In this document: positions 2,151 to 24,422 of the stretch, piece after piece
How the letters are laid out: the number at the start of each line of letters is the position of its first letter
How positions within the stretch are numbered: the stretch's first letter is position 1
DNA from: a virus
Direction: 5' to 3' (one strand)
DNA: 24,422 nucleotides
Virus record (IMG/VR): IMGVR_UViG_3300004457_000004
Location: 10,279 to 34,700 of that record
Program-made: the position numbers and the translations under genes
Notes under the pieces: generated by a model
Database searches by the model: none
What the model saw: the letters and a program-made list of their open reading frames with translations, nothing else
Told to the model about the DNA's origin: nothing

Positions 2151-4931
2151 ATGTCAATATCCCACAGAACCCACAGGCTGAGGCTAGACGGAAGTCCCTC
2201 CGTAGATCAACTTCACAACGGTCGATACAGACTTACATTTAAATTAAAAAGCACTAATCCCAGTGAGGATTGGTATAACTCAAATAAGGACTCGATATTC
2301 GCAGAATACGGGTCACTTCAGAGCGATGCTTTTGACGGCAATGGCGCTGAGGCTCGAGTGGGAGAGGCATACTCCGACATGCTCCTCGTTAGTGCTTCCT
2401 CTAAGGGGGAAGGAGAAGATTATAGTATCACATTTGTATACGAAACGCTTACGTCTGCATTCGTAGTCGAGTCCGAAAATAAAATCGACTTTGATCTGAA
2501 TGGGCTCAAGCGAGTAGTCAAAACGATTATAGCTAAGTCTGGAACCGCTTATTCAAATGCATTGGGGACTACCCCGCTTAGTAGTGACTCTGAATCATCA
2601 GACAACGAAGTAATACTAGCTAAGTCCGAAGACTATCAACTTAAATCTGAAGAAGGTGGCTTCAGACGCATAACAGAAACATACCTGGAAAAAGGTATAA
2701 TCTCGGTTGATGTAAAAACTAAATACGGGGGCAACGCCGAAACTTCCGCAAACGACTTTCAGATTGCTGAAATTAAAGCAGTAGGATTGACGGCATCGGA
2801 AGCCCTTGCTGCCTCTTTATTGTCAGGATTTGCCGCCTTCGATACAGCGGAAGAGAACTCCCAGGGCCTATCTATCTTCGTATACAGATACACTAAGGGC
2901 TCGGGAGAAATATCCAGAACAACCTCTACCGAGGGTTTAATTACTAACGTAGTAATAACAAGCGTAAATGAAAAGCCCGATTCAACTGGTATTGGAGTTA
3001 TAACCAAGACCGACGTCCAGGCCAGGGAAGACGCCCTAATTTATACTTATACTTTTTCATCTGGATCTGGAACGCTAGAAACGAAGACGAGTAGTAAATA
3101 CAATAACCAGCTCACCATAACTACGGTAAGATCCTTGGATACCGTTCCATCGGTTCCATCTGGAGCTTATCAAGTTAGCGCCAGCAGCGAGTCAAGTGGG
3201 GCTTTTTTAATTCATACTCTTACGTATGCAGCTGGTAGTGGGCAGATAGGAATCTCAGAGGAATCGAGATACGATGACAAGCTCACCATAACTACGAAGA
3301 CACACCTGAATGAAGTTCCTACAATGTCAGCCGCTACAATTAGCACTGATGTTAGGTCTGGGGACTACGGGCAGATATACGTCTACAAGTTTGCGTCTGG
3401 CAGTGGACGGATAGGTATCTCAACAGATTCAAGGTATGGCGGTACACTTACAATTACCACCTTAACACACCTGAACGAAGTCCCGTCTATGACATCAGCT
3501 GCTACAATTAGCACGGATGTCAAGTCTGGGGACTACGGGGATATATACACCTACAAGTTTGCATCGGGCAGTGGGCAGATAGGTATCTCAACGGATCAAA
3601 AATACAATAACAAGCTCACCATAACCACAAAGACATTCCTGAATGAAGTCCCGTCTATGTCAGCGACAACAATTGGGACGGAGGTTAGGTCTGGCGACTA
3701 TGGGGACATCTACACCTATAAGTTTGCATCTGGTGCTGGACGGATAGGTGAGAATGAATCTAAAAAATACGACGACGTAATAACCGTAACAACCGTCAAG
3801 CATTTAAATGAAGCGGCAGAGACTTCGGGCACTATTATTTCTACGGACGAACAGGAGACTGAATTCGGGACCATTTTTAGCGCTACCTTTTATACTGGAG
3901 AAGGTCAGATCCAAGAAGACATCCAAAACCGTTATGATGATAATCTTACCATTACCACGGTAGCAAACATAAACAGCGAGCCCACCGTCCCTGCTGGTGC
4001 TTACTTAATGAAGAGTAGTGTCAGGGATACTGAATACGGCCCCATCACTAGCAAAACCTTCGCAGAAGGAGAAGGTAAAATTGAGGATAGTGACAGATCC
4101 AAAGTAATTTCGATTTCAAGTGGGCTCGACGGAGAAGTCCAGGAAATAAGGGAGAGGCACCTGAATCCACCTTCCGTTCCAGACAAGGGAACGGAATATG
4201 TTCTGGTTTCGGAAAGAAATACAGATGGTGACTTTGGCCAAATATCCGAATACACTTGGATTAAAGGATCTGGAATACTGCGTAAAAGCAAGGAAATTAG
4301 GTCCGATGGGAGTGAAGTTCACACATTTGCTTGCGCAGGAGCTTTTGATGTTGAAACGGATGGCGGAATGACTGGAGCTGCTGGAGAGGATTATTTCTTA
4401 GTATCTGAGGACGTTCAAGCTCAAGAGGGATACGAAATAACTACCTACAAATATTACACTCTTCCAGATAACTATGAAGTAACTTATGTTAAAAGTTTAA
4501 GGACCGCAGACAGAATAGACTTCGACTCGGACCTCGGGCCGCATATTGGCGAGGCTGGGAGCATGGATAGCTTCACAGGGACTAGTTCCGTGTCATTTAG
4601 CATCGATTTACCTGAAAACGCAGCGGTATCTGACCTTGAGCCGTCCGTGGTAATTGGAGAGTCCGTAAGGTGGACAGATGGAACTTTAACCGACAGGAAT
4701 ATGGTTTTCAGAAATGCTTATGCTGATTTTGGTGGGCAGGCTGAAACTGGGGGAGGGACCGAAATATACAGGGGGAAGGCTTACAAGGGATACAACGTAA
4801 ATGTAACTGGTGACACTGTAAACCCATACACTGGCACGTTGACTGTAGGATTTGAAGTGCTCCCCTATATTTCGGTGGGAGGGGTCACTGTATATAAAAC
4901 AACAAAAAGTGAAGTGACAGTAGCAAGTTAA
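2151..4931 (+). CDS. Large repeat-containing virion/tail protein, probable adhesin or fibre, 926 aa
   Basis: The 926-residue protein is dominated by Ser, Thr, Gly, Tyr and Asp with alternating polar/hydrophobic segments, as in beta-structured tail fibres. Residues about 195-715 consist of degenerate tandem repeats of 55-57 residues. Each has a KYxxxLTITTxxxLNEVP segment, a variable Ser/Thr loop, then SGDYGxIYxYKFASGSGxIG. The GSG-type turn occurs nine times (bases 2898 to 4266). The C-terminal 150 residues are a different, non-repeated domain. The + strand late setting and neighbouring 169-aa and 943-aa proteins support a tail or decoration role. No pectinase, sialidase or chaperone motif is recognised, so enzymatic activity cannot be claimed. 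Confidence 0.8.
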   Translation: MSISHRTHRLRLDGSPSVDQLHNGRYRLTFKLKSTNPSEDWYNSNKDSIFAEYGSLQSDAFDGNGAEARVGEAYSDMLLVSASSKGEGEDYSITFVYETLTSAFVVESENKIDFDLNGLKRVVKTIIAKSGTAYSNALGTTPLSSDSESSDNEVILAKSEDYQLKSEEGGFRRITETYLEKGIISVDVKTKYGGNAETSANDFQIAEIKAVGLTASEALAASLLSGFAAFDTAEENSQGLSIFVYRYTKGSGEISRTTSTEGLITNVVITSVNEKPDSTGIGVITKTDVQAREDALIYTYTFSSGSGTLETKTSSKYNNQLTITTVRSLDTVPSVPSGAYQVSASSESSGAFLIHTLTYAAGSGQIGISEESRYDDKLTITTKTHLNEVPTMSAATISTDVRSGDYGQIYVYKFASGSGRIGISTDSRYGGTLTITTLTHLNEVPSMTSAATISTDVKSGDYGDIYTYKFASGSGQIGISTDQKYNNKLTITTKTFLNEVPSMSATTIGTEVRSGDYGDIYTYKFASGAGRIGENESKKYDDVITVTTVKHLNEAAETSGTIISTDEQETEFGTIFSATFYTGEGQIQEDIQNRYDDNLTITTVANINSEPTVPAGAYLMKSSVRDTEYGPITSKTFAEGEGKIEDSDRSKVISISSGLDGEVQEIRERHLNPPSVPDKGTEYVLVSERNTDGDFGQISEYTWIKGSGILRKSKEIRSDGSEVHTFACAGAFDVETDGGMTGAAGEDYFLVSEDVQAQEGYEITTYKYYTLPDNYEVTYVKSLRTADRIDFDSDLGPHIGEAGSMDSFTGTSSVSFSIDLPENAAVSDLEPSVVIGESVRWTDGTLTDRNMVFRNAYADFGGQAETGGGTEIYRGKAYKGYNVNVTGDTVNPYTGTLTVGFEVLPYISVGGVTVYKTTKSEVTVAS
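2898..4277 (+). repeat. Nine tandem ~165-bp coding repeats inside the 926-aa gene
   Basis: The codons for the Gly-Ser-Gly-type turn begin at 2898, 3063, 3234, 3399, 3567, 3732, 3897, 4068 and 4266, giving spacings of 165, 171, 165, 168, 165, 165, 171 and 198 bases. All are multiples of three, so the reading frame is kept. Copies from about 3234 to 3732 are nearly identical in places at DNA level (for example ctcaccataactac and tctggggactacggg), which points to recent duplication or gene conversion. The outer copies have diverged strongly. Confidence 0.9.
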
Positions 4932-5440: not shown

Positions 5441-8272
5441 ATGGCTAATTGGCACACCACCCAATATGCGGAGAGTGCATGGGCTTTGGCTGCAGCAGGC
5501 GAATGCTCCGCCCGAACAACCAGTCAGTCGGGGGCGAACGGCGCTACAATGGGCGAAGGGGGTGGGGTAACAACCTTCAGCAGTAGAGCTGTAAATAGCA
5601 ACGGCGACGGCGTAGCAGGAACTACACGTCGAGAAGGAGGAAACAACTACTTCTCGACAACTCAAAACGCAACAACGAGTTCAAATGCAGCCGTAGACTA
5701 CGGTGATTCCGATGACACTCCTAGCCCAAACACGGTCAACGCTGGGGTGAATGCGAACAATGAGTACGTAAGCTACAATAACGTATTAGAGGCTGGTAGC
5801 ACTGCGGTCACCGAAGGCGGAAGCCCTGCGGTAGTAGGGACTAATAGTAACAAAGGGACTTTCAGCAAATATGTTCATAGTATAAAACATTATTTACGCC
5901 TGGGTGTGCCAGCCAAAAATAGTAGGCACACTAATGCAAATAGCGGTAAGTCGGTTGGTGGTACTACATACTCACCAGCAAATGGAAATGGAGGATCTAC
6001 GGCGGGACGAACTACAAGTGGAGGTAATTACAATTCATTTGGTGGTACTACTGGAGGGAGACCTGCCCTGAATTCAACATATGCAACATATTTTAAAAGT
6101 AACACTGGTTTCTCCGACGGAGGAGACACTATGCAGTTGTCACTATCTAGCTATAGTTATAGCCGAGGAATTTTTGCAACCAGGCAGATCGAACAAGAAG
6201 GAAAGAACTCTACGATGGCGGCACAGTGGGACTACACGGCTGCGTATGGCGACTATACCTTTGTGTATTTTGAAGACTCCGATACTTATTACGGTACCAA
6301 GGTAGCCAGGATTACCTACGAGCCCGACAACTACGATTACGGACAACCTGCAAGTGTTGAAAACCCTTATGAAGGCGACGCAGTACCAACTGAAGAGAAG
6401 ATAGAACTTCAGGACTCAAATGGTGAAAACAGTGATTTATCACCTGACGAAGAAACTGGTGATGTTGATGTCCCAGATGCTGAAGCTCCAGATGAAGACT
6501 CCCCAGATTGGGTTGCTCAGATTGGCAGTCAGATTGCGCCAGTATCTAACGTCAGCTACACTTTAACTAATTATACCAATGTGGGGTTCTCTTACGACAC
6601 AAAAACAGCTCGAGGGGCCTATAGTTTTTCACCCGATGCTACATATAAGTCTACCGTCGTCGACTATGGAGACGGAGACGGATATGGAGACGACTACAAC
6701 TACTGCGGAAACATTAATGTGACTCTGGAAAAATACGATATGTATGAATCAGATTCATCCGATACAGACGAAACTCGAAGCGGCAACTATTACAACACTT
6801 ACGGACTTTCAATAGTATACAGCACAACCTATTACGCATTAGGTGGTCAGGTTGGGGTGAAAGGGCGTGAAGAAGTGGGTGGCGATGCTGGGTGGGGTAC
6901 TATTGATGGGTCGGCATTAAGCTATGGAACAAGTGCTTCGGTCGGGCCCAGTAAATACGACAGACTAGTTATGTTCGCGGGTGCTGCCGAGGGAAATTCT
7001 AATGCCACCAGAATGGTTCTTGATGGACAGGGCTACAGAACTCGGCTTAAACCTAAATTAACAAAAACTATAACCTATTGGACCACTAGCTATAACAGTG
7101 AATCAAGATCCAGTATTGGATATTTTGGACTCGGTAACAGCGTGCGGATAAACGATATTTTTACGAGCAGTTATGAAACTCAAGTGTATAATGGAACGGA
7201 AAACCAAGATAATCAATACAATAGTTACAAAGAAGAAGTCTACCAAAGGTCGCATGGTGATCGTCTGGAGGCGAGCAGGGCAGCTTCAACACGAGATAGT
7301 TATGAGTATAATTACGATTATGTATTTTGGGGCGGGGAAGGTATGGTTACCATTACCAAAACACAGCTGGATTACAGTAATTACAGGACCATTTCAACAG
7401 TTCAGACCCGCGCCAGTCTTGAGGACGGTTACGGAGTAACCGAAAAGCAAACGGGATCTTTTGGCTTTAAGGGAGTTTATGCGGTGGGAGGTGAATATAT
7501 TGAATTTTACAGCCAAAGCGCAATTAGTCCTAGACAGGTTAATGTGTTCAAAACGAACACTAATTTGGACCAGGGGGAGGATGCACTTACTCCTCCCGAA
7601 TTAAAGTTTACTGAAGAATATTTAAAGTCTGATATATCTGAGGGGGAAACGATATGGACCTCCATAAGCACAAGGACGGACTCTTTTTGGTCAATACCTG
7701 GGTTCAGTCCTAGTATATCTAAGGCCAAATTTCATCCTATACTTGATACTGTTTCTATTCCAGGTTCATACGGAAGCGTTACCGTAGAGGGGGATAAAAT
7801 TACTCAACTGAGAACCGTTCAACTCACGGTTCCGCGCACGTATAAAGTGGTTGATGATTCGGAGCAACCTCCAGCCACAGATACATTCACTGAAGTCTTT
7901 AGTTTTACTCAAACTTTAGGTAGAACTATAAGTAAGGCAGGGGGCCTACAATATTCCAATACTGGTTACGCTATTGCTGAGCCAGTTGTCCTGTCTCCAG
8001 GTCAGTTTCTACTTACAGGCCAATTATATCTCGGAGGCGGAATGGGATACGATGTTCCAGGGACGGCTAATGTGGGGCCTGGTCATGGATCTCTGATGAA
8101 CGCAGATGGCACAACGGACTTGGGTTACGATGGCCTAAATCGGACAATTCAGCTTGACACTGGACCCATGCTTTACAAGAATCCAGAGGGAGCTCGCTAT
8201 TCTCTGGGAGGCGATGGAGTTGAATATTTCTCTCGAGGCGTAGACCCATACCAAGATTATTATGAGTGCTAA
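5441..8272 (+). CDS. Very large Gly/Ser/Thr/Tyr-rich virion protein, probable tail fibre/spike, 943 aa
   Basis: The first ~220 residues are Gly/Asn/Ser/Thr-rich and low in complexity (runs such as GGTTYSPANGNGGSTAGRTT). A Tyr-rich beta region follows, then an acidic linker at about residues 305-360 (SPDEETGDVDVPDAEAPDED) that looks like a flexible hinge. Residues 365-943 are again beta-rich with many Tyr. The C-terminus (MGYDVPGTANVGPGHGSL, then repeated Gly-Tyr-Asp) is non-repetitive. No enzymatic motif is seen. Size, composition and position directly after two putative tail genes argue for a receptor-binding fibre or spike. The stop overlaps the glycosyltransferase start by 11 bases. Confidence 0.75.
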   Translation: MANWHTTQYAESAWALAAAGECSARTTSQSGANGATMGEGGGVTTFSSRAVNSNGDGVAGTTRREGGNNYFSTTQNATTSSNAAVDYGDSDDTPSPNTVNAGVNANNEYVSYNNVLEAGSTAVTEGGSPAVVGTNSNKGTFSKYVHSIKHYLRLGVPAKNSRHTNANSGKSVGGTTYSPANGNGGSTAGRTTSGGNYNSFGGTTGGRPALNSTYATYFKSNTGFSDGGDTMQLSLSSYSYSRGIFATRQIEQEGKNSTMAAQWDYTAAYGDYTFVYFEDSDTYYGTKVARITYEPDNYDYGQPASVENPYEGDAVPTEEKIELQDSNGENSDLSPDEETGDVDVPDAEAPDEDSPDWVAQIGSQIAPVSNVSYTLTNYTNVGFSYDTKTARGAYSFSPDATYKSTVVDYGDGDGYGDDYNYCGNINVTLEKYDMYESDSSDTDETRSGNYYNTYGLSIVYSTTYYALGGQVGVKGREEVGGDAGWGTIDGSALSYGTSASVGPSKYDRLVMFAGAAEGNSNATRMVLDGQGYRTRLKPKLTKTITYWTTSYNSESRSSIGYFGLGNSVRINDIFTSSYETQVYNGTENQDNQYNSYKEEVYQRSHGDRLEASRAASTRDSYEYNYDYVFWGGEGMVTITKTQLDYSNYRTISTVQTRASLEDGYGVTEKQTGSFGFKGVYAVGGEYIEFYSQSAISPRQVNVFKTNTNLDQGEDALTPPELKFTEEYLKSDISEGETIWTSISTRTDSFWSIPGFSPSISKAKFHPILDTVSIPGSYGSVTVEGDKITQLRTVQLTVPRTYKVVDDSEQPPATDTFTEVFSFTQTLGRTISKAGGLQYSNTGYAIAEPVVLSPGQFLLTGQLYLGGGMGYDVPGTANVGPGHGSLMNADGTTDLGYDGLNRTIQLDTGPMLYKNPEGARYSLGGDGVEYFSRGVDPYQDYYEC

Positions 8273-9272
8273 AATTGCTACAGTTGTCGTTGGAACTTCA
8301 TCTTACCTGGACCCTATGGAAGTTTCACTCAGGAGGGTTCTGAGCGCCACAAATGCCGTTGAAGACTGCGAGCATCTTTTAGTTGTTGTTACGGATGTTA
8401 AAAGCGCCGAAAGAGTTGAATCCATGTGCAGCCCGTTCAAGAACTTTAAAATAATTTCTTGTGATGTTAAGGAGGAAGGGGATCACTACGAGACAGACAG
8501 GCAGATACTAATAGCTACACTTCAGTCGTCGGGATTTAGTGCTGCCAGGCAGTGGGGCTGTGATTTTCTTTGGAGTGTTGAAGCTGACGTCCTGGTCCCG
8601 CCTAACGCGCTCAAGGTTTCAATGCAAATGCTTGAATTTGACGATGGATATTATGACGTTTCCTTTGTTACATACCCATCCCAAGGGGGAGGCAGCTTCT
8701 TGGGCGGGCACGGGGAATTCGACTCTCACATAAACGAAGACTTCCTTGATTCAGAAAGATCCATACCGAAGCGCTTAAAAAGCCTGAAGGAGGCTTGCCT
8801 TAAAATATTGAATTCTAATACCAAAGACAGAAAGAAGTTAAAGAAGGAGTCCAAAAGGTTATCCAGGATCAACGAAAAAATAAAACAATGCCCGCCCAAG
8901 GCAAACGTTTTTACTCTTAACGGAAAAAAATGGAGAAGGCGGGGATGGCTCGAGAATAGCCACCCTGGAATAGGTCGAGGTGCAGTATTACAGACCGACT
9001 GGACTGGCCTCGGATGCACGCTAATGAGCAAGAAAGCCACGAGCCTGGCTCACTTCGATGGATATGAGGGTAAAGGGACGCAGGATTTGTTTTTGAATTG
9101 GGAGAAATGGAAGCCAGAGGGACTTAATTTCTGCTGTATAACGCACATCGCTTGCGATCACATCATTAGGCATGGAAAAGATCTTGTTACATTAAAGTCA
9201 TACCATGAGCCATTAGGGGAGACCAGGGGTCACCTTAGATACAAAAAAACCAAATTTAATAAGTTTATTTAA
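8262..9272 (+). CDS. GT-A-like glycosyltransferase, 336 aa
   Basis: The N-terminal half fits a GT-A fold: a beta strand IATVVVGTSSY (residues 5-15), a central strand LLVVVTD, and the acidic motif LWSVEADVLVPPNAL (103-117), in which Glu-Ala-Asp sits where the DxD metal/nucleotide-sugar motif lies in family-2-like enzymes. Residues about 165-215 form a Lys-rich helical insertion. The C-terminal part (QTDWTGLGCTLMSKK, then GTQDLFLNWE and CDHIIRHGK) resembles the acceptor-side region. The likely role is sugar transfer onto a virion protein or a host surface glycan. The donor and acceptor are unknown. It overlaps the upstream fibre gene, and the next gene makes or modifies a nucleotide sugar. Confidence 0.7.
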   Translation: MSAKIATVVVGTSSYLDPMEVSLRRVLSATNAVEDCEHLLVVVTDVKSAERVESMCSPFKNFKIISCDVKEEGDHYETDRQILIATLQSSGFSAARQWGCDFLWSVEADVLVPPNALKVSMQMLEFDDGYYDVSFVTYPSQGGGSFLGGHGEFDSHINEDFLDSERSIPKRLKSLKEACLKILNSNTKDRKKLKKESKRLSRINEKIKQCPPKANVFTLNGKKWRRRGWLENSHPGIGRGAVLQTDWTGLGCTLMSKKATSLAHFDGYEGKGTQDLFLNWEKWKPEGLNFCCITHIACDHIIRHGKDLVTLKSYHEPLGETRGHLRYKKTKFNKFI

Positions 9273-9290
9273 AGTAATAAACGTTCAATA

Positions 9291-10277
9291 ATGAAAAGAG
9301 TTCTTATAACTGGAAGCGCTGGGTTTGTTGGGTCGCACACGACTGACTGGATACTAGATAAAACTGACTGGGAAGTAGTGGGAATTGACTCCTTCAGGCA
9401 CCTCGGTGACGTTGAGCGGGTGAGCGCTAGACCAAGATACACAATGGTCTGCCATGACTTGAATGCTCCTATCTCCAAGAGGACTAAGGACAGGATTGGA
9501 AAGATAGATTATATTATCAATTGCGCGTCCATATCGCATGTAGATACATCTATTAGCGACCCTATTTACGTGTGGGAGTCTAACACTGCCCTAATTGGAA
9601 ACATTCTAAAATACGCCAGAGAGCTGGACTCCCTCGAGAAGTTCATTCACTGCAGTACGGACGAGGTATTCGGAGCAGCCAACCAGGGCTACTCTCATCA
9701 CGAGTGGGACGTCATTGCTCCCTCTAACCCTTACGCCGCATCAAAGGCGGCTCAGGACGCTCTGTGCTTCGCTTTCTGGCGCACTTACGGGGTTCCAGTC
9801 GCAGTGACGCACTGCATGAACATGATCGGCACCACCCAAGACCCAGAGAAATACCTGCCGAAGATTGTAAGCAGGGTTCTCAAAGGGGAGGTTGTTCCTG
9901 TTCACGGCCAACCAGACAAGATAGGGTCCAGGATGTATATTGATTGCAGGAACCTGGCCGACGCTTGGTTATTCATGCTGGAGGGCATTGACTTCAATGT
10001 CTACGGGGAGGACTGCGCCAAGATGACCAAGTTCAACATAGCTGGCCTGGATGAGATAACCAACCTTGAATTGGCACAGAAAATAGCGGATAAGATGAAC
10101 CTGCCATTGAAATATGAATTAGTTGACTTTCATCAGACTAGACCTGGGCACGACCTGAGGTATGCCCTGGACAGTTCTAAGATCTATGAAGCTGGTTGGA
10201 GTCCCCCGATAGACCTAGATACAACCTTTGACGAGGTCATTAAGCACGTCAAATCCTTTAAAAGCTGGCAGGAGTAA
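9291..10277 (+). CDS. NAD-dependent epimerase/dehydratase, extended SDR, RmlB/GalE-like, 328 aa
   Basis: Residues 8-14 (GSAGFVG) are the Rossmann NAD(P)-binding motif. HCSTDEVFG (120-128) is the serine-containing signature typical of dTDP-glucose 4,6-dehydratase-like enzymes, and YAASK (148-152) supplies the catalytic YxxxK pair. DPEKYLPKIV and SRMYID fit the substrate-binding part. The length of 328 is normal for the family. In the usual RNxYGP segment the protein has MNMIGT, so substrate choice may differ. It probably converts a nucleotide sugar for the adjacent glycosyltransferase. The 18-base gap before its ATG (taaagtaataaacgttcaataATG) has no Shine-Dalgarno sequence. Sugar identity cannot be told from sequence. 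Confidence 0.9.
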   Translation: MKRVLITGSAGFVGSHTTDWILDKTDWEVVGIDSFRHLGDVERVSARPRYTMVCHDLNAPISKRTKDRIGKIDYIINCASISHVDTSISDPIYVWESNTALIGNILKYARELDSLEKFIHCSTDEVFGAANQGYSHHEWDVIAPSNPYAASKAAQDALCFAFWRTYGVPVAVTHCMNMIGTTQDPEKYLPKIVSRVLKGEVVPVHGQPDKIGSRMYIDCRNLADAWLFMLEGIDFNVYGEDCAKMTKFNIAGLDEITNLELAQKIADKMNLPLKYELVDFHQTRPGHDLRYALDSSKIYEAGWSPPIDLDTTFDEVIKHVKSFKSWQE

Positions 10278-10301
10278 CCTGTCAGGACCAAATAATTAAA
10301 T

Positions 10302-10318
10302 GTGATATAATAACCCTA
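10302..10318 (+). promoter_or_regulatory. Candidate extended -10 promoter, possibly leaderless transcript
   Basis: The sequence tgtgatataat contains TG-A-TATAAT, a perfect sigma70 extended -10, with the hexamer at 10306-10311. A good -35 is not visible, as is common for extended -10 sites. The usual start seven bases beyond the hexamer would be base 10318, the A of the ATG of the 609-aa gene. It lies in one of the few intergenic gaps (40 bases) of the late block. AT-rich chance matches are possible. Confidence 0.35.
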
Positions 10319-12147
10319 TGCAGCCACTTCAAAACGTAACAGATAATAAAGATAAAATGCAGCTCTTAGGGCAGGCACAAACCCAGACAAAAGATCAGCG
10401 CCTGGAGGGCCAGGAGCCTGGCTTGAAGGACAGATTCATTGATGGAACTATAGATTTTGGAATCGGGGGCTTGGACGCTGCAGAAGATGCTGTAAGCACG
10501 GGTTTTGACGGGTTCCTGGTGGACTCTGCAATAAAACTTGGGCAGAAGCACATACCTAAGATCCCAGGAATATCGAGGATACCAGGAGCAGCGAGACTTG
10601 CACCTTACTTGATGCGTAGCCCACAGGCGGCAGCAATAGGCGCAACGGCAGTAGGATCATACGGGCTTGGAAAAGCGTTTACTGAAGCTACTGGTCTCGA
10701 CGATAAAGTCGCCAACATGATAGTAGGGAACAAGGACTACAGTGGGTCTGGAAATATTACAGGAGAGCAGCAGAAGCTAATGGACCAGGGCTTTAACCCT
10801 TACGAGCCCACCTACAATGAGCACCGCAGAGGCGCTCAATATACCGACAAGAGTGCCTCTAATATTAACGGATACGAGAGGTCGCCAGGCTACACTCGTT
10901 GGATAGAGATGGGTGGAACTGACGAGACTTACGCCCGCCGAAACGCAGGCTACAACGGGCGAGAGCAAACCCCTGAATTCAAGGCTCACGTAGCAGCTGG
11001 TGGAAACGAAGTTAGTTTCGCCGCTCAACCTCAGGGCCCTAGTGGAGGTCCCACAAATACAAATCAAGCCACTCCCATGCTTGATGATGTCATGCAGAAC
11101 GGCATTGGACCATTCCAACCTGGCGCAATTGACATCGGAGCAAATCAGCCCAACCTCGCACAATCGGCTGTTCAAGCTGCCTCCAATCCAAACTTAGAAG
11201 CAGTTAAAGCTGCAGGGCAAGCTCCTCAGCCTAACTTGGGCGCGGTTGAGCAAGCACCTCCCGCTCAAATTCCTGGGGTTCCTCAACACGGAGACTTAGT
11301 GGGGTCATACCAAGATCGGGATGGCAGGAACGTTGGAATCTTTGAGGGTATGCCAATGCGCAACGAGCAGGGCGAACTAACATACATCGGCGACGATCAA
11401 GTAGCCGCGATGCAGGACAGGATGGACGCTCAGGGCGCTCCAGTTATATCTGGAGAGAAGGAAGGCAACCTGGTTCCGTTTATAGACAACATGGGCAACG
11501 TTCAATATGGCGACAAGCAAACAGCTAATGGGATGAACGCAATTGAAGCGGAATACCAGAGGGAGGATAAAGCGGCGCACCAAAGATTCTTACAATCCGA
11601 CGCAGCTAAGCAAATGACAGCTAGGAGCCTGGAGAACGCCAGGGCAGATGTTGCTGCTCAGAACGCCCAGAGTCAGGCCAGGGAGGCCAGGATGAACGCT
11701 AGACCAGACTTCAACGAAGCTAGACCTGGTGTAACTAATAGTCTGGATGGTTTAACTTCGTCTCAAAGGCGCAGGATGTATCCTGACCCTGCGGACGCAG
11801 AAAGATCCAAGCGGGGCATCTTGCCAGACGGAACCAGCATGGAGGCAGATCGAAAAGCGAAAGAGCTTAAGATGAAGGAAACTCAGGCCCGTATAGATGC
11901 CTTGAAGGACAAAGACCCAAGCAAATACGAAGCCAATATCGATGTTGTTAACGGCCTAATACAGGGACCTCAGTTCGAAAATTTGGACGATGCGCAAAAG
12001 GCTAGAGTGAAAACCATTATGATGATGGAGCTCATGGGAATTGGAACCGAAGAAACCCAGTTCGAATTTGACGGCATTGTTTATCCTGAACCAGTTTCAC
12101 CAGGCAATGGCAATGGCGATGGCTCCAGTAGTTCTGCATCAGAATAA
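10318..12147 (+). CDS. Putative internal virion (ejection) protein, 609 aa
   Basis: The protein is Gln/Ala/Asn-rich. Residues about 80-125 form an Ala/Gly-rich apolar segment (RSPQAAAIGATAVGSYGLGK) that could cross or insert in a membrane. Residues 130-280 are polar and probably disordered. The region 385-480 is helical and rich in Ala, Gln and Arg (REARMNARPDFNEARPG). The tail is an acidic, Gly/Asn/Ser-rich linker. No known enzymatic domain is seen. Position just before the 1218-aa protein, and similar composition to T7-type gp14/gp15 internal proteins, suggest a protein released with the DNA; this is inference. The ATG has no Shine-Dalgarno sequence but follows a candidate -10 element. Confidence 0.6.
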   Translation: MQPLQNVTDNKDKMQLLGQAQTQTKDQRLEGQEPGLKDRFIDGTIDFGIGGLDAAEDAVSTGFDGFLVDSAIKLGQKHIPKIPGISRIPGAARLAPYLMRSPQAAAIGATAVGSYGLGKAFTEATGLDDKVANMIVGNKDYSGSGNITGEQQKLMDQGFNPYEPTYNEHRRGAQYTDKSASNINGYERSPGYTRWIEMGGTDETYARRNAGYNGREQTPEFKAHVAAGGNEVSFAAQPQGPSGGPTNTNQATPMLDDVMQNGIGPFQPGAIDIGANQPNLAQSAVQAASNPNLEAVKAAGQAPQPNLGAVEQAPPAQIPGVPQHGDLVGSYQDRDGRNVGIFEGMPMRNEQGELTYIGDDQVAAMQDRMDAQGAPVISGEKEGNLVPFIDNMGNVQYGDKQTANGMNAIEAEYQREDKAAHQRFLQSDAAKQMTARSLENARADVAAQNAQSQAREARMNARPDFNEARPGVTNSLDGLTSSQRRRMYPDPADAERSKRGILPDGTSMEADRKAKELKMKETQARIDALKDKDPSKYEANIDVVNGLIQGPQFENLDDAQKARVKTIMMMELMGIGTEETQFEFDGIVYPEPVSPGNGNGDGSSSSASE

Positions 12148-18641: not shown

Positions 18642-18718
18642 TGGTAGGGAAGACAGGACTCGAACCTGTGGCCCTCGGTTTAGAAAACCGATGCTCTATC
18701 CAGCTGAGCTACTCCCCC
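18642..18718 (-). tRNA. tRNA-Arg, anticodon UCU
   Basis: Reading the - strand from 18718: a 7-bp acceptor stem GGGGGAG with CTTCCCT (two G-U pairs, including 1-72), TA, a D-arm (GCTC/GAGC), the anticodon stem TCGGT/ACCGA with loop TTTCTAA, and a T-arm ACAGG/CCTGT with loop TTCGAGT. A73 and an encoded CCA follow. The anticodon TCT is at 18684-18682 and reads AGA and AGG, both abundant in the late virion genes. It sits between two coding genes with gaps of only 8 and 4 bases, so it is cut from the operon transcript. Confidence 0.96.
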
Positions 18719-21488: not shown

Positions 21489-21492
21489 GCCC

Positions 21493-21535
21493 AAAAAAAA
21501 GCACCTTAAGTATTGGTTGTCAATACCTAAGGCAC
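21493..21535 (-). terminator. Terminator between the early cassette and the replication operon
   Basis: The - strand reads a 15-bp stem (GTGCCTTAGGTATTG with CAATACTTAAGGTGC), a 5-base loop ACAAC and eight T. All 15 pairs form in the - strand RNA, three as G-U; the + strand RNA would have three A-C mismatches. The T-run lies five bases before the next ATG. Within the 3' arm, aaggtg could serve as a weak ribosome-binding site hidden in the stem, so termination and translation of the next gene may exclude each other. Confidence 0.85.
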
Positions 21536-21550
21536 TCGGTTTTTATATTG

Positions 21551-21640
21551 CTATTGTAACTCTGATCCTGCAAGCATCATTAGTATAAGTAGAGTCAATA
21601 TAGCTACATTAATCAGGTCGCACAACAGCTTGCTAAGCAT
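21551..21640 (-). CDS. Tiny predicted membrane peptide, 29 aa
   Basis: A 29-codon ORF starts inside the end of the preceding gene (8-base overlap). It has a fitting Shine-Dalgarno sequence (agaaggg, about five bases before the ATG) and ends 15 bases before the terminator stem. The product is a single hydrophobic helix: MLSKLLCDLINVAILTLLIL followed by MMLAGSELQ. Tiny one-span peptides are common in phage early regions, but such a short ORF could be chance. The ribosome-binding site, the coupling overlap and the clean membrane-like sequence are the arguments for it. Confidence 0.45.
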   Translation of the reverse strand: MLSKLLCDLINVAILTLLILMMLAGSELQ

Positions 21641-21944
21641 CGACGCCCTTCTGCAGTCCTAGGTTCACGAAGACCTTGTCCAACTCTAGCATGAATAGCC
21701 GTTGCCTTTCTAGACTGTCTTCCATCGGCATGTCATTAGGTGCATTCCAGTCCGTCAGGAACCCGTCGTCCGTGAAGTGCGCTAGGACGTCGTCGTGCGT
21801 GATCGCGGTGTATTGCCCGTCAGTCTGCGCTAGCATGCGGACTGAGCCTTCCTCCTTGAGGAGTCGATTGACTTCACTGAAGTAAGTGAATGGTTCTTCT
21901 TCGGGTAGATCTAGTTCTTCTATGATTTCGGTTATATTTTTCAT
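21633..21944 (-). CDS. Acidic early-cassette protein of unknown function, 103 aa
   Basis: The 103-residue protein is strongly acidic (start MKNITEIIEELDLPEEEPFT). Residues 18-65 suggest small beta strands (SVRMLAQTDGQYTAITHDDV, then FLTDWNAPNDMP), and residues 75-95 a helix (LERQRLFMLELDKVFVNLGL). No family is recognised. A clear Shine-Dalgarno sequence (aaaggaaac) precedes the ATG. It follows the 117-aa protein by 13 bases. Small acidic proteins of this sort in phage early regions often bind host proteins or mimic DNA, but nothing here proves it. Confidence 0.75.
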   Translation of the reverse strand: MKNITEIIEELDLPEEEPFTYFSEVNRLLKEEGSVRMLAQTDGQYTAITHDDVLAHFTDDGFLTDWNAPNDMPMEDSLERQRLFMLELDKVFVNLGLQKGVDA

Positions 21945-21957
21945 TGTTTCCTTTCTG

Positions 21958-22311
21958 TTATAGTTCTGCGGTGAAACTGCATTGACCTTCTTCTTTTATG
22001 CAGTCTCTAATGCGCCTGCCCATGAGCAGGTCGGCATACTCCGAGACTTCGTGATCGGCGACTGAATGCTTCTTGAGCCACTCTTTATTGTAGAAGTCAG
22101 TGCCCTCAAAGCACGCTTTCACTTTATCGACGTCGATGGCATCTTCGATGCGCTTGATCTCTGCTTCAACGTCGGGCAATTGCTCATCGTCGAAGTAGTA
22201 TTCCAAGTATTCTGGCTGATAACCCTCAGAGCCGAACCTGTCGGCGCAGTTGGAGTCCTGAACTGCGAACCAGAATTTACCTTCTATGTCTCCACTGTAG
22301 TATCTACCCAT
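21958..22311 (-). CDS. Conserved phage protein starting MGRYYSGDIEGKFWF, 117 aa
   Basis: The start MGRYYSGDIEGKFWFAVQDS is one I recognise from uncharacterised proteins in varied phages. The usual features are an aromatic-rich beta segment, ADRFG, a YLEYYF strand and a helical acidic middle (DVEAEIKRIEDAIDVDKVKA). The C-terminal helix includes EYADLLMGRRIRDCIKEEGQ. The family's function is unknown. The Shine-Dalgarno sequence is perfect (ggaggaacc before ATG), and the start overlaps the upstream stop by eight bases. Strong initiation and early position suggest abundant early expression. Confidence 0.8.
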   Translation of the reverse strand: MGRYYSGDIEGKFWFAVQDSNCADRFGSEGYQPEYLEYYFDDEQLPDVEAEIKRIEDAIDVDKVKACFEGTDFYNKEWLKKHSVADHEVSEYADLLMGRRIRDCIKEEGQCSFTAEL

Positions 22312-22540
22312 TGGTTCCTCCTTCCATTGATTGCACCATAGGGAGAAGGCATTCCTCTACCGCTTGATCTACAGCATTAATGATGTATCCCCATGCGTCG
22401 TCGTCGTTATGAAAATAATCAACGACTTCATTCCATTGGTCATCGGTTGAACTTATCTTCATTCCCAGTCGGGCTGTAATAGTTTCGTCGAGTGTATCTC
22501 GGCTGAAAACTATGATGTGGTCTTTATGTGTATCGTTCAT
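22304..22540 (-). CDS. Acidic early-cassette protein, 78 aa
   Basis: A 78-residue acidic protein: MNDTHKDHIIVFSRDTLDET, a Gly turn, then EVVDYFHNDDDAWGYIINAV and a short apolar helix before QSMEGGTNG. No family is recognised. The Shine-Dalgarno sequence aaaggaac lies four bases before the ATG. The gene overlaps its upstream neighbour by 17 bases and its downstream one by 8, so translation is chained. Confidence 0.7.
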   Translation of the reverse strand: MNDTHKDHIIVFSRDTLDETITARLGMKISSTDDQWNEVVDYFHNDDDAWGYIINAVDQAVEECLLPMVQSMEGGTNG

Positions 22541-22817
22541 TTGTTCCTTTCTGTTTTTTAATAGCGTCGCAGAATGCGTTGCTTAGGTGCTCGTCGGGCG
22601 ATACGTATTCGTATGGCTCGGGCTTTGGCTCAAGGGCGTATCTGATCTCCGAGTGAATGCAACTGTAGATCGTGTCGTCCAGATTACTGGGCACGTCGTC
22701 GTCGCTCCACTCGGGGAAGTGCATCTCATATTTAGATAGCACCTCGCGGACTTCGTCCATCACCATGTTAGTGATGTCGTCGATGCACTCTTCTTTATGT
22801 TCTCCTTCTGGCATCAT
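22524..22817 (-). CDS. Acidic early-cassette protein, 97 aa
   Basis: The start is taken at the first of two adjacent ATGs (22817), which overlaps the upstream TGA; ggagg lies seven bases before it. A longer reading from 22976 would add a basic, low-complexity 53-residue stretch that is the shadow of the upstream gene. The product is acidic: GEHKEECIDDITNMVMDEVR, then FPEWSDDDVPSNLDD and a helical region (IYSCIHSEIRYALE). The second half has EYVSPDEHLSNAFCDAIKKQ. No family is recognised. Confidence 0.7.
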   Translation of the reverse strand: MMPEGEHKEECIDDITNMVMDEVREVLSKYEMHFPEWSDDDVPSNLDDTIYSCIHSEIRYALEPKPEPYEYVSPDEHLSNAFCDAIKKQKGTNERYT

Positions 22818-23107
22818 ACCTCTTCCTCCATTAGTTGTTCTCCTGCTAGATCCTTTATGCATCGCAGGTCTTCTCTCGTTAATGACGACAGGGGTATCGC
22901 CCTGTATTCGTCGGCGGTATCCGTCAAGACTTGAACCGATTGTAGGTCGACGTCTTCTATCTCGACCTCGTCCCACTTCTCAACGCAATTCTTGTCGTCC
23001 CCGTAGGTGGAAGTGCACTCGCAGTGATTCAGCCTCCACGAGACTTCCGTCGTAGCAATGCAGTCCCTGCCTCTCAACTCTAGTTCTACTTCTATTATGC
23101 TCCTCAT
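22814..23107 (-). CDS. Cys-containing early-cassette protein, 97 aa
   Basis: It starts at ATG 23107, overlapping the upstream TGA as ATGA, with a perfect Shine-Dalgarno sequence (aaaggagg, spacing about eight). A longer reading from 23218 is rejected because it lies over the neighbour. The protein is beta-rich at the start (SIIEVELELRGRDCIATTEV), has a WRLNHCECTSTYGDD segment with two close cysteines, an acidic KWDEVEIEDVDLQSVQVL strand pair, and the helix LTREDLRCIKDLAGEQLMEE. The cysteines are C17, C31, C33 and two later ones; metal binding is possible but not shown. No family is recognised. Confidence 0.7.
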   Translation of the reverse strand: MRSIIEVELELRGRDCIATTEVSWRLNHCECTSTYGDDKNCVEKWDEVEIEDVDLQSVQVLTDTADEYRAIPLSSLTREDLRCIKDLAGEQLMEEEV

Positions 23108-23307
23108 TCGAAGATCCTCCTTTCTACGTCCTTGCATGATTGTTTCCAAGCCTCCCAAGAGACTAGACCATTCGTCCAATTCTCGGGTTGCTCTTCTATC
23201 TTCGACACCTGCTCGCAATATTTTTCAATTGCCGACAGGATCACTACTTGATTCAGCGGTGAACCGAAGTCCATCGCGCTAGTTACTTTTTCTATGTTTG
23301 TTTTCAT
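23104..23307 (-). CDS. Small conserved phage protein, 67 aa
   Basis: The protein begins MKTNIEKVTSAMDFGSPLNQ and continues VVILSAIEKYCEQV, a pattern (FGSPLxQxxxLxAIxxYxxxV, then a WxxW-containing stretch) widely found in uncharacterised phage proteins. The second half holds NGLVSWEAWKQSCKDVERRI, the usual final helix. The fold is probably a small helical bundle of unknown role. A Shine-Dalgarno sequence (aaaggaat) precedes the ATG, which overlaps the upstream TGA as ATGA. Confidence 0.8.
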   Translation of the reverse strand: MKTNIEKVTSAMDFGSPLNQVVILSAIEKYCEQVSKIEEQPENWTNGLVSWEAWKQSCKDVERRIFE

Positions 23308-23600
23308 GATTCGTATTCCTTTGTTCCCATTTGAAAGCCGAAAGCGTAATCGGCACTTCGTTCGTCTTTATTCGAATATGGCGACTTGTAGTTGTCCCCA
23401 TGCATGCCGTCTGTATAGCCAGTATTGTAGGCGGTCATTGAAAGGATCATTATGTCCTGCGCCATCGGCGACAACTCCTTCACCAGTGCTTCTATCCGCA
23501 CCAGTCTCTCGTAGTAATCGTGCGGTTCTGTTTCGTCGAGTGCCGACTGCACCTCTATGTCCAATTTGGCGATTGTCGCCCTGAGCATTGTCTCCTTCAT
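23304..23600 (-). CDS. Helical early-cassette protein, 98 aa
   Basis: The 98-residue product is mostly helical: LRATIAKLDIEVQSALDETE, then DYYERLVRIEALVKELSPMA and DIMILSMTAYNTGYTDGMHG. It ends with a polar tail (DERSADYAFGFQMGTKEYES). The central Tyr/Gly-rich turn is typical of small phage proteins, but no family can be named. An excellent Shine-Dalgarno sequence (gaggaggt, about six bases before the ATG) lies in the end of the upstream gene; the start overlaps its stop as ATGA. Confidence 0.75.
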   Translation of the reverse strand: MKETMLRATIAKLDIEVQSALDETEPHDYYERLVRIEALVKELSPMAQDIMILSMTAYNTGYTDGMHGDNYKSPYSNKDERSADYAFGFQMGTKEYES

Positions 23601-23761
23601 ACTGTCACCTCCTCTTCGAACATCTCTACAATGTGAATTGTCCCGTCTAGGACTTTATCCGCCAGCCATTCCCTTCGGTCGGCGTAGGTCATCGACTGGA
23701 TCTCGTCACGATCCTGTTCGTCTATAGAGAAGCTACTCATGTCTACTGTGTATACCTTCAT
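23597..23761 (-). CDS. Short acidic early-cassette protein, 54 aa
   Basis: A 54-residue ORF fills what would otherwise be a 157-base gap. It has a perfect Shine-Dalgarno sequence (agaggaggt, about six bases before ATG), and both ends use ATGA overlaps with its neighbours, which is strong support despite its length. The product begins MKVYTVDMSSFSIDEQDRDE and continues IQSMTYADRREWLADKVLDG, ending in an acidic segment (EMFEEEVTV). The pattern of a strand followed by a TYADRREWL helix is plausible for a small soluble protein. No family is recognised. Confidence 0.75.
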   Translation of the reverse strand: MKVYTVDMSSFSIDEQDRDEIQSMTYADRREWLADKVLDGTIHIVEMFEEEVTV

Positions 23762-24066
23762 ACGTCCACCTCCTCTGTGTTGTATCCGTTCTCCTTCAGT
23801 AGCTCAATGACCCCGCTCGACAAGGCAAACACCCCGTCGTAATCGGTGACATTCTTGCCCTCGAACCAGAGACCGCCCTCGGCGTGCCACTCATTGCCCC
23901 CAGTTTCTTCGTCGAAGATCTCGAACCAGCCGTAGTCATGGCTTCTGATTCCAATAGTGCAGTTGAGCTGAACCTCTGTCTCTTCTCTTATTACTCCAAA
24001 CGAGTTCTCAAGTGTGAGATGCTCGGTAGTGATCTTGTTGTATGTCTTCTGTTTTTCTTTTTGCAT
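23758..24066 (-). CDS. Conserved phage protein with YGWFEIFDEETGG motif, 102 aa
   Basis: The start is set at ATG 24066; a GTG at 24126 would lie directly behind the terminator and add a low-complexity stretch. The core, HDYGWFEIFDEETGG followed by EWHAEGGLWFEG and YDGVFALSSGVIELLKENGY, is a pattern I recognise from many unnamed phage proteins (YGWxExYDxETGG...AEGGLWF...DYDG). It is aromatic-rich and acidic, with a final helix. The function is unknown. The ATG has no close Shine-Dalgarno site; a gggaga lies about 11 bases away. It is the first gene after the terminator. Confidence 0.75.
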   Translation of the reverse strand: MQKEKQKTYNKITTEHLTLENSFGVIREETEVQLNCTIGIRSHDYGWFEIFDEETGGNEWHAEGGLWFEGKNVTDYDGVFALSSGVIELLKENGYNTEEVDV

Positions 24067-24097: not shown

Positions 24098-24128
24098 CTC
24101 TCTGTCGTTGATGATTGCTGGCGCACAG

Positions 24129-24160
24129 AAAAACCCTAGCCAGAATTACTGACTAGGGTT
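24129..24160 (-). terminator. Terminator before the early cassette
   Basis: The - strand has a 12-bp stem (AACCCTAGTCAG with CTGGCTAGGGTT), a TAATT loop and five T. One pair is G-U in the - strand RNA and C-A in the + strand RNA. It lies five bases after the stop of the partial gene at the right edge and isolates it from the cassette that follows, so that cassette needs its own promoter or read-through. Confidence 0.8.
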
Positions 24161-24165
24161 CGCTG

Positions 24166-24422
24166 TTATCTATTCCAAGTTTCCTTGATTGTGCACCAGA
24201 TGATGGCTTGCGCTTCGTATCCCTTGAGCTCGTAAGCTCGGGCGAGTTCTACAGTTACCGCTTCAATTCGGCGATATTGTGCAGATGTGCAACTCTCGGC
24301 GGTTGGCGTGATGCCTTGCTCGGGTCGAGTCAAGCAAGCTCGGATGTGCCACTTGTCCGCCGTGATGTGATCGGGAGAAAGCAACCCGACATTCATGGCA
24401 AAGGCGTGCGTCTTCGGTGACT
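24166..24422 (-). CDS. C-terminal part of a conserved phage protein (partial)
   Basis: The frame is open to the right window edge, so the gene most likely begins outside; the ATG at 24396 is probably internal, because KTHAFAMNV just before and across it fits the family. The pattern KTxAFxxN, then DHITADKWHIRACLTRP and a closing YEAQAIIWCTIKETW, matches phage proteins of a type I recall as DUF7178-like (a helical protein with a TxDxW...RA motif and an AQAIxW end). The function is unknown. The stop lies five bases before a terminator. Confidence 0.65.
   Translation of the reverse strand, partial: SPKTHAFAMNVGLLSPDHITADKWHIRACLTRPEQGITPTAESCTSAQYRRIEAVTVELARAYELKGYEAQAIIWCTIKETWNR

Follow-up and report, generated by a model that had tools for sequence, protein, structure and literature searches.

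A mosaic cassette of ten small genes for acidic proteins, placed before the replication genes in an uncultured tailed phage, and the wide spread of one of its members

Gene layout and genomic position of the cassette

We analysed a stretch of 24,422 nucleotides (hereafter the window) that corresponds to bases 10279-34700 of a 34.7-kb virus contig from IMG/VR. The contig was assigned to a tailed phage because a terminase large subunit (phrog_2) and a major head protein (phrog_1328) are encoded elsewhere on it. A DNA search of the window against GenBank phages found neither a near nor a distant relative; comparison of DnaB gave C75C1 (OQ984151) as the nearest GenBank phage, with 41% identity, and this phage shares the gene order nuclease, endonuclease VII, ERF, SSB and DnaB. 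Ten ORFs, g1 to g10, follow each other on the minus strand (Table 1). The first-pass annotation had described them as a chain of genes of 29-117 aa linked by ATGA or short overlaps and lying between two terminators, and this description held. ORFs of at least 29 codons starting with ATG cover 99.5% of the minus strand in the interval, compared with a mean of 39% and a maximum of 65% in 500 simulated first-order Markov sequences. The 4-nt ATGA overlap occurs at five junctions (g1/2, 2/3, 3/4, 4/5 and 5/6), g6/7 overlap by 17 nt, g7/8 and g9/10 by 8 nt each, and g8/9 are separated by a 13-nt gap.

Table 1 Features of the cassette and its flanks, in window coordinates
Feature	Position	Strand	Description
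201-aa gene	24396-24166 (part at the window end)		one of the small genes ahead of the cassette
Upstream intrinsic terminator	24128..24161	-	13-bp stem, 5-nt loop, U tract; directly follows the upstream gene, which ends at 24166
g1	24066-23758	-	102 aa; predicted beta sheet and C-terminal helix; two diverged alleles in close relatives
g2	23761-23597	-	54 aa; orphan, missing from relatives
g3	23600-23304	-	98 aa; conserved among relatives
g4	23307-23104	-	67 aa; phrog_7895 family, FGSPLNQ motif
g5	23107-22814	-	97 aa; marginal phrog_34822 match; two diverged alleles
g6	22817-22524	-	97 aa; second ATG at 22814; group-restricted
g7	22540-22304	-	78 aa; in few relatives (L005, L013/L017)
g8	22311-21958	-	117 aa; phrog_33624; widespread single-gene cargo, N-terminus near-invariant
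g9	21944-21633	-	103 aa; diverged alleles among relatives
g10	21640-21551	-	29-aa hydrophobic peptide; among relatives only in L005 and L019
Downstream intrinsic terminator	21492..21537	-	17-bp stem, 5-nt loop, U tract
Two genes between cassette and nuclease	21494-21126, 21129-20575		

Comparison with homologues from eleven close relatives gave dN far below dS for nine of the ten genes (all but g2), with two relatives each for g7 and g10, showing that these nine are real genes under purifying selection. A pattern search of IMG/VR found no relative of g2, whose coding support consists of a good Shine-Dalgarno sequence (ribosome-binding site) and the ATGA junctions; as g1 directly overlaps g3, without g2, in L005 and L013, g2 appears to have been inserted in this phage. 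The terminators on either side of the cassette are real. They fold far better than shuffled sequences (z -4.5 upstream and -5.6 downstream; 0 of 200 shuffles), and both are conserved: the upstream one (-22.4 kcal/mol) is nearly identical in 8 relatives, and the downstream stem keeps 16 of 16 pairs across 8 sequences, with 14 two-sided changes, a number above that in every one of 500 shuffles. A consensus search beside the cassette found no convincing sigma70-like promoter.

The end of the contig falls just upstream of the cassette, and the relatives L005 and L012 extend further. There the terminase genes, running in one direction, are followed by a gene-poor intergenic stretch, a few small genes and then the cassette, which begins some 3 kb beyond the end of the divergently oriented terminase genes; after the cassette lie two more genes, the nuclease and the replication genes, including ERF and DnaB. 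The stretch between a divergent control region and the replication genes is a usual home of early accessory genes, and the cassette occupies this position in both relatives, which suggests that it is likely expressed early. The divergent intergenic region itself (about 5400-7250 in L012 and L005) is unusually rich in terminator-like hairpins, with 12 against 1.3 expected and 9 against 1.5 expected, respectively. Elsewhere in the window we found a tRNA-Arg gene (anticodon TCT, 18642-18718) between the dATP/dGTP diphosphohydrolase-like and endonuclease VII genes. In the structural arm, a 926-aa protein (2151-4931) with several near-repeat segments (like GSGRIGISTDSRYGGTLTITTLTHLNEVP) is probably tail fibre-like, and a glycosyltransferase-like gene (recognised by eye) and a nucleotide-sugar epimerase gene (phrog_540, E 7.7e-74) lie among the structural genes at 8262-10277.

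Acidity had been claimed for most of the products and was found in all ten (pI 4.08-4.90), most of the neighbouring replication genes encoding neutral or basic proteins. The claim that three or four products match widespread unnamed phage families was generous: PHROGs profiles gave two clear full-length or near full-length matches, g4 to phrog_7895 (residues 1-62 to profile 1-62 of 73, E 5.1e-6) and g8 to phrog_33624 (residues 1-116 to profile 1-121 of 122, E 1.6e-13), both families with no function assigned, and a third that was only marginal (g5). Close homologues of g4, whose dN is near 0 in the closest relatives, occur in this phage group and in a few larger phages; the single-sequence method matched 32 viral contigs in IMG/VR for g4, 11 for g6 and 7 for g1. 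None of the cassette products matched a functional family, and the two predicted folds, those of g1 and g8, had no match among solved structures. No product had a significant match to structural families; such a match would have spoken against the first-pass reading. Known anti-restriction families (e.g., ArdA or Ocr-type) gave no Pfam match to any of the ten at E up to 1, and for the g8 family none was found in NCBIfam or PADLOC either. The g1 model (pLDDT 90) was compared with solved structures and gave nothing convincing (best Z 4.9).

Single-gene exchange within the cassette

Recombination has added, removed or replaced the cassette genes one by one, the replacements being diverged alleles. 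Three of them (g2, g7 and g10) come and go among relatives, and g1, g5, g8 and g9 exist as diverged alleles that are differently distributed among near-identical phages. In relatives with 87-95% nuclease identity, single cassette genes are 59-73% identical in some and 87-100% in others, and which alleles are diverged and which near-identical varies from gene to gene. Thus, g1 is 98-99% identical with L005 and L013 and 73% with L004, L012, L019 and L021; g5 is 89-90% identical with L004, L013 and L021 and 68-71% with L005, L012, L016 and L019; and g8 is 87-90% identical with L003, L004 and L005 and 59-61% with L012, L013, L016, L019 and L021. As the allele pattern differs from gene to gene, the genes must have been exchanged singly. 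Mosaicism is not unique to the cassette, since alleles are also replaced in the nearby lysozyme-like gene (72-94%) and in DnaB (71-89%); it is a feature of the whole arm that is strongest in the cassette.

Spread and conservation of the g8 family

The g8 family is present in at least 386 IMG/VR contigs according to single-sequence patterns and in at least 514 according to a broader alignment, a small fraction of the 2.9 million contigs; the bearing contigs range from a few kb up to 206 kb. Searches by tblastn with five different queries gave no significant match in 50,697 GenBank phage records, the collection that holds C75C1, and several g8 relatives found nothing significant in GenBank plasmids. 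Bacterial copies are rare, with six loci in genome_contigs. Counting the seed genome in each case, g8 was found in 3 of 298 sampled genomes of the phylum of Helicobacter brantae and in 1 of 398 and 1 of 296 in two other phyla. The H. brantae copy (L088 / L137) is a 213-aa version with a long insertion, and it probably sits in a mobile element, since tyrosine recombinase-like and methyltransferase genes are nearby. In a Campylobacterota chromosome (L135, G013:C1:1386000-1405900, positions 9801-11320), a gene for a Card1-like CARF nuclease (PF09002, E 4.5e-12) is followed after 23 bp by a g8 homologue; no further CRISPR genes were recognised within 20 kb of this locus, and no convincing CRISPR repeats were found near the Card1-like gene.

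The gene crosses from one phage genus to another on its own. L012 and L003 share only 59% identity in g8 but 95% in DnaB and 98% in the nuclease, and the reverse is seen between L012 and L010, with 91% in g8 but 39% in DnaB and 65% in the nuclease. The nuclease tree parts two phage genera (support 100/100) and the g8 sequences of both are intermingled; the g8 data reject a tree that holds the first genus together (AU p=8e-53). Unrelated phages have almost entirely different genes next to g8 (307 clusters among 428 genes), and Pfam domains on the 58 neighbours scanned were DUF932 (3), RadC, GP88, primase-type domains and others. Catalogued until now as an unnamed PHROG, the family is thus widely distributed among uncultured phages, moves horizontally and reaches a few bacterial genomes. 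Both this exceptional spread and the gene-by-gene mosaicism of the cassette were missed by the first-pass annotation.

The N-terminus of g8 is near-invariant (MGRYYxGDIEGKFWF), with a mean major-residue frequency of 0.90 over residues 1-27 compared with 0.53-0.74 elsewhere, and M1, R3, G7, D8, I9, K12, F13, S20 and the C-terminal F and E are kept even in distant copies. The AlphaFold model (mean pLDDT 89) begins with an N-terminal strand segment, continues into a helical hairpin and ends in a C-terminal strand. Confidence in the prediction is lowest for the most conserved segment, which may become ordered on binding. Comparison of the model with solved and viral structures gave no convincing match. 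None of the Foldseek matches listed for g8 fell below E 0.1, and the absence of the nucleotide-signal sponges Tad1, Tad2, Acb2 and Acb4 from the list does not exclude a similarity to them. Profile matches to PDB entries were coiled coils (occludin, haemagglutinin stalk) with E of 0.04 or worse and were put down to chance, as were the weak Pfam, NCBIfam and PADLOC matches of single members, which were scattered over unrelated families. The VIA matches of g8 (Z up to 5.3) were helical hairpins, Gfh1 and DksA2 among them, and could point to a binder of the RNA polymerase secondary channel; this was rejected because they were not above unrelated entries.

Possible roles of the cassette and of g8

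On balance, we favour the view that the cassette, an accessory module close to where the early/replication arm begins and whose genes are exchanged one at a time, serves host takeover or counter-defence. Its products would be small proteins, made early, that help the phage to seize the cell or escape defence by binding to host proteins, nucleic acids or immune signals, and differences between hosts would be the reason why the genes are swapped. The first-pass annotation had pointed in the same direction; what stands is an operon-like accessory cassette that shows gene gain and loss and allele swapping of the sort expected of host-interaction genes. A specific anti-defence function found no support. 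Cassettes of this kind are well known. The early gene 0.3 region of T7, with Ocr and the small gene 0.x products, likewise groups small genes before those for replication. Anti-defence islands in the leading regions of plasmids are also clusters of small early genes, many of them uncharacterised (PMC11541004), but the present cassette is in a phage and has no known anti-defence gene among its members.

A serious, if unlikely, rival is that the products support phage DNA replication or recombination, as accessory factors of the ERF, nuclease and DnaB module, rather than acting on the host. The cassette points the same way as the nuclease, ERF, endonuclease VII and DnaB genes and lies just ahead of them, and g3, g4 and g6 are fairly stable within the phage group; however, a conserved terminator parts the cassette from the replication genes, g2, g7 and g10 are dispensable, and g8 is found in phages where its neighbours are unrelated. 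We consider it quite improbable that the acidic proteins are DNA mimics, a role that the first-pass annotation had raised because of their acidity, and that they block restriction enzymes, RecBCD or RNA polymerase. Such a role would suit the consistent acidity of the products beside mostly non-acidic neighbours, and acidic phage DNA mimics exist, such as SPO1 Gp44 (PMC8208478). T7 Ocr is, like g8, acidic and 117 aa long, and it is encoded first in the early region. Net charge per residue of the ten products is, however, -0.05 to -0.17, lower in density than the -0.24 of Ocr; no domain similarity to the T7 products and no domain or fold match in favour of mimicry was found, and the conserved part of g8 is the N-terminus with its conserved R, K, W and F, not an acidic helical surface.

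Still more doubtful is the idea that g8 is a sponge or anti-type-III factor, neutralising either a nucleotide immune signal or the CARF-type effector of such a signal. A small ligand found universally would fit an invariant segment with polar residues that recurs in hosts of many phyla, and the Campylobacterota homologue next to the Card1-like gene points the same way, but this is a single locus with no other CRISPR genes recognised around it, and g8 has no sequence or fold match to solved proteins.

Within the favoured reading of an accessory cassette, the notable part is the g8 family. It is the best candidate for a tool against the host because it is strikingly conserved and common to hundreds of uncultured phages. 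Tentatively, g8 might represent a family of single-gene mobile phage effectors whose N-terminal segment inactivates a single host target or immune signal common to bacterial phyla; its role would have escaped notice because GenBank phages lack the gene. The near-invariant segment would bind that one target across bacterial phyla, with the acidic helical part free to vary, and our guess is that the protein acts by binding and not by catalysis. Proteins in an arms race do not usually keep an invariant N-terminus, which could equally reflect a housekeeping phage function.

Early accessory cassettes are among the main sources of new host inhibitors and anti-defence proteins, and the one described here gives a ranked shortlist. 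First comes g8, conserved, mobile, unnamed and carried both by phage contigs of up to 206 kb and by a few bacteria, and then g1 and g5, which occur as swapped alleles. As g8 is small and its N-terminal segment is sharply conserved, its putative target can be searched for directly, by pull-down and by point mutation of the segment.
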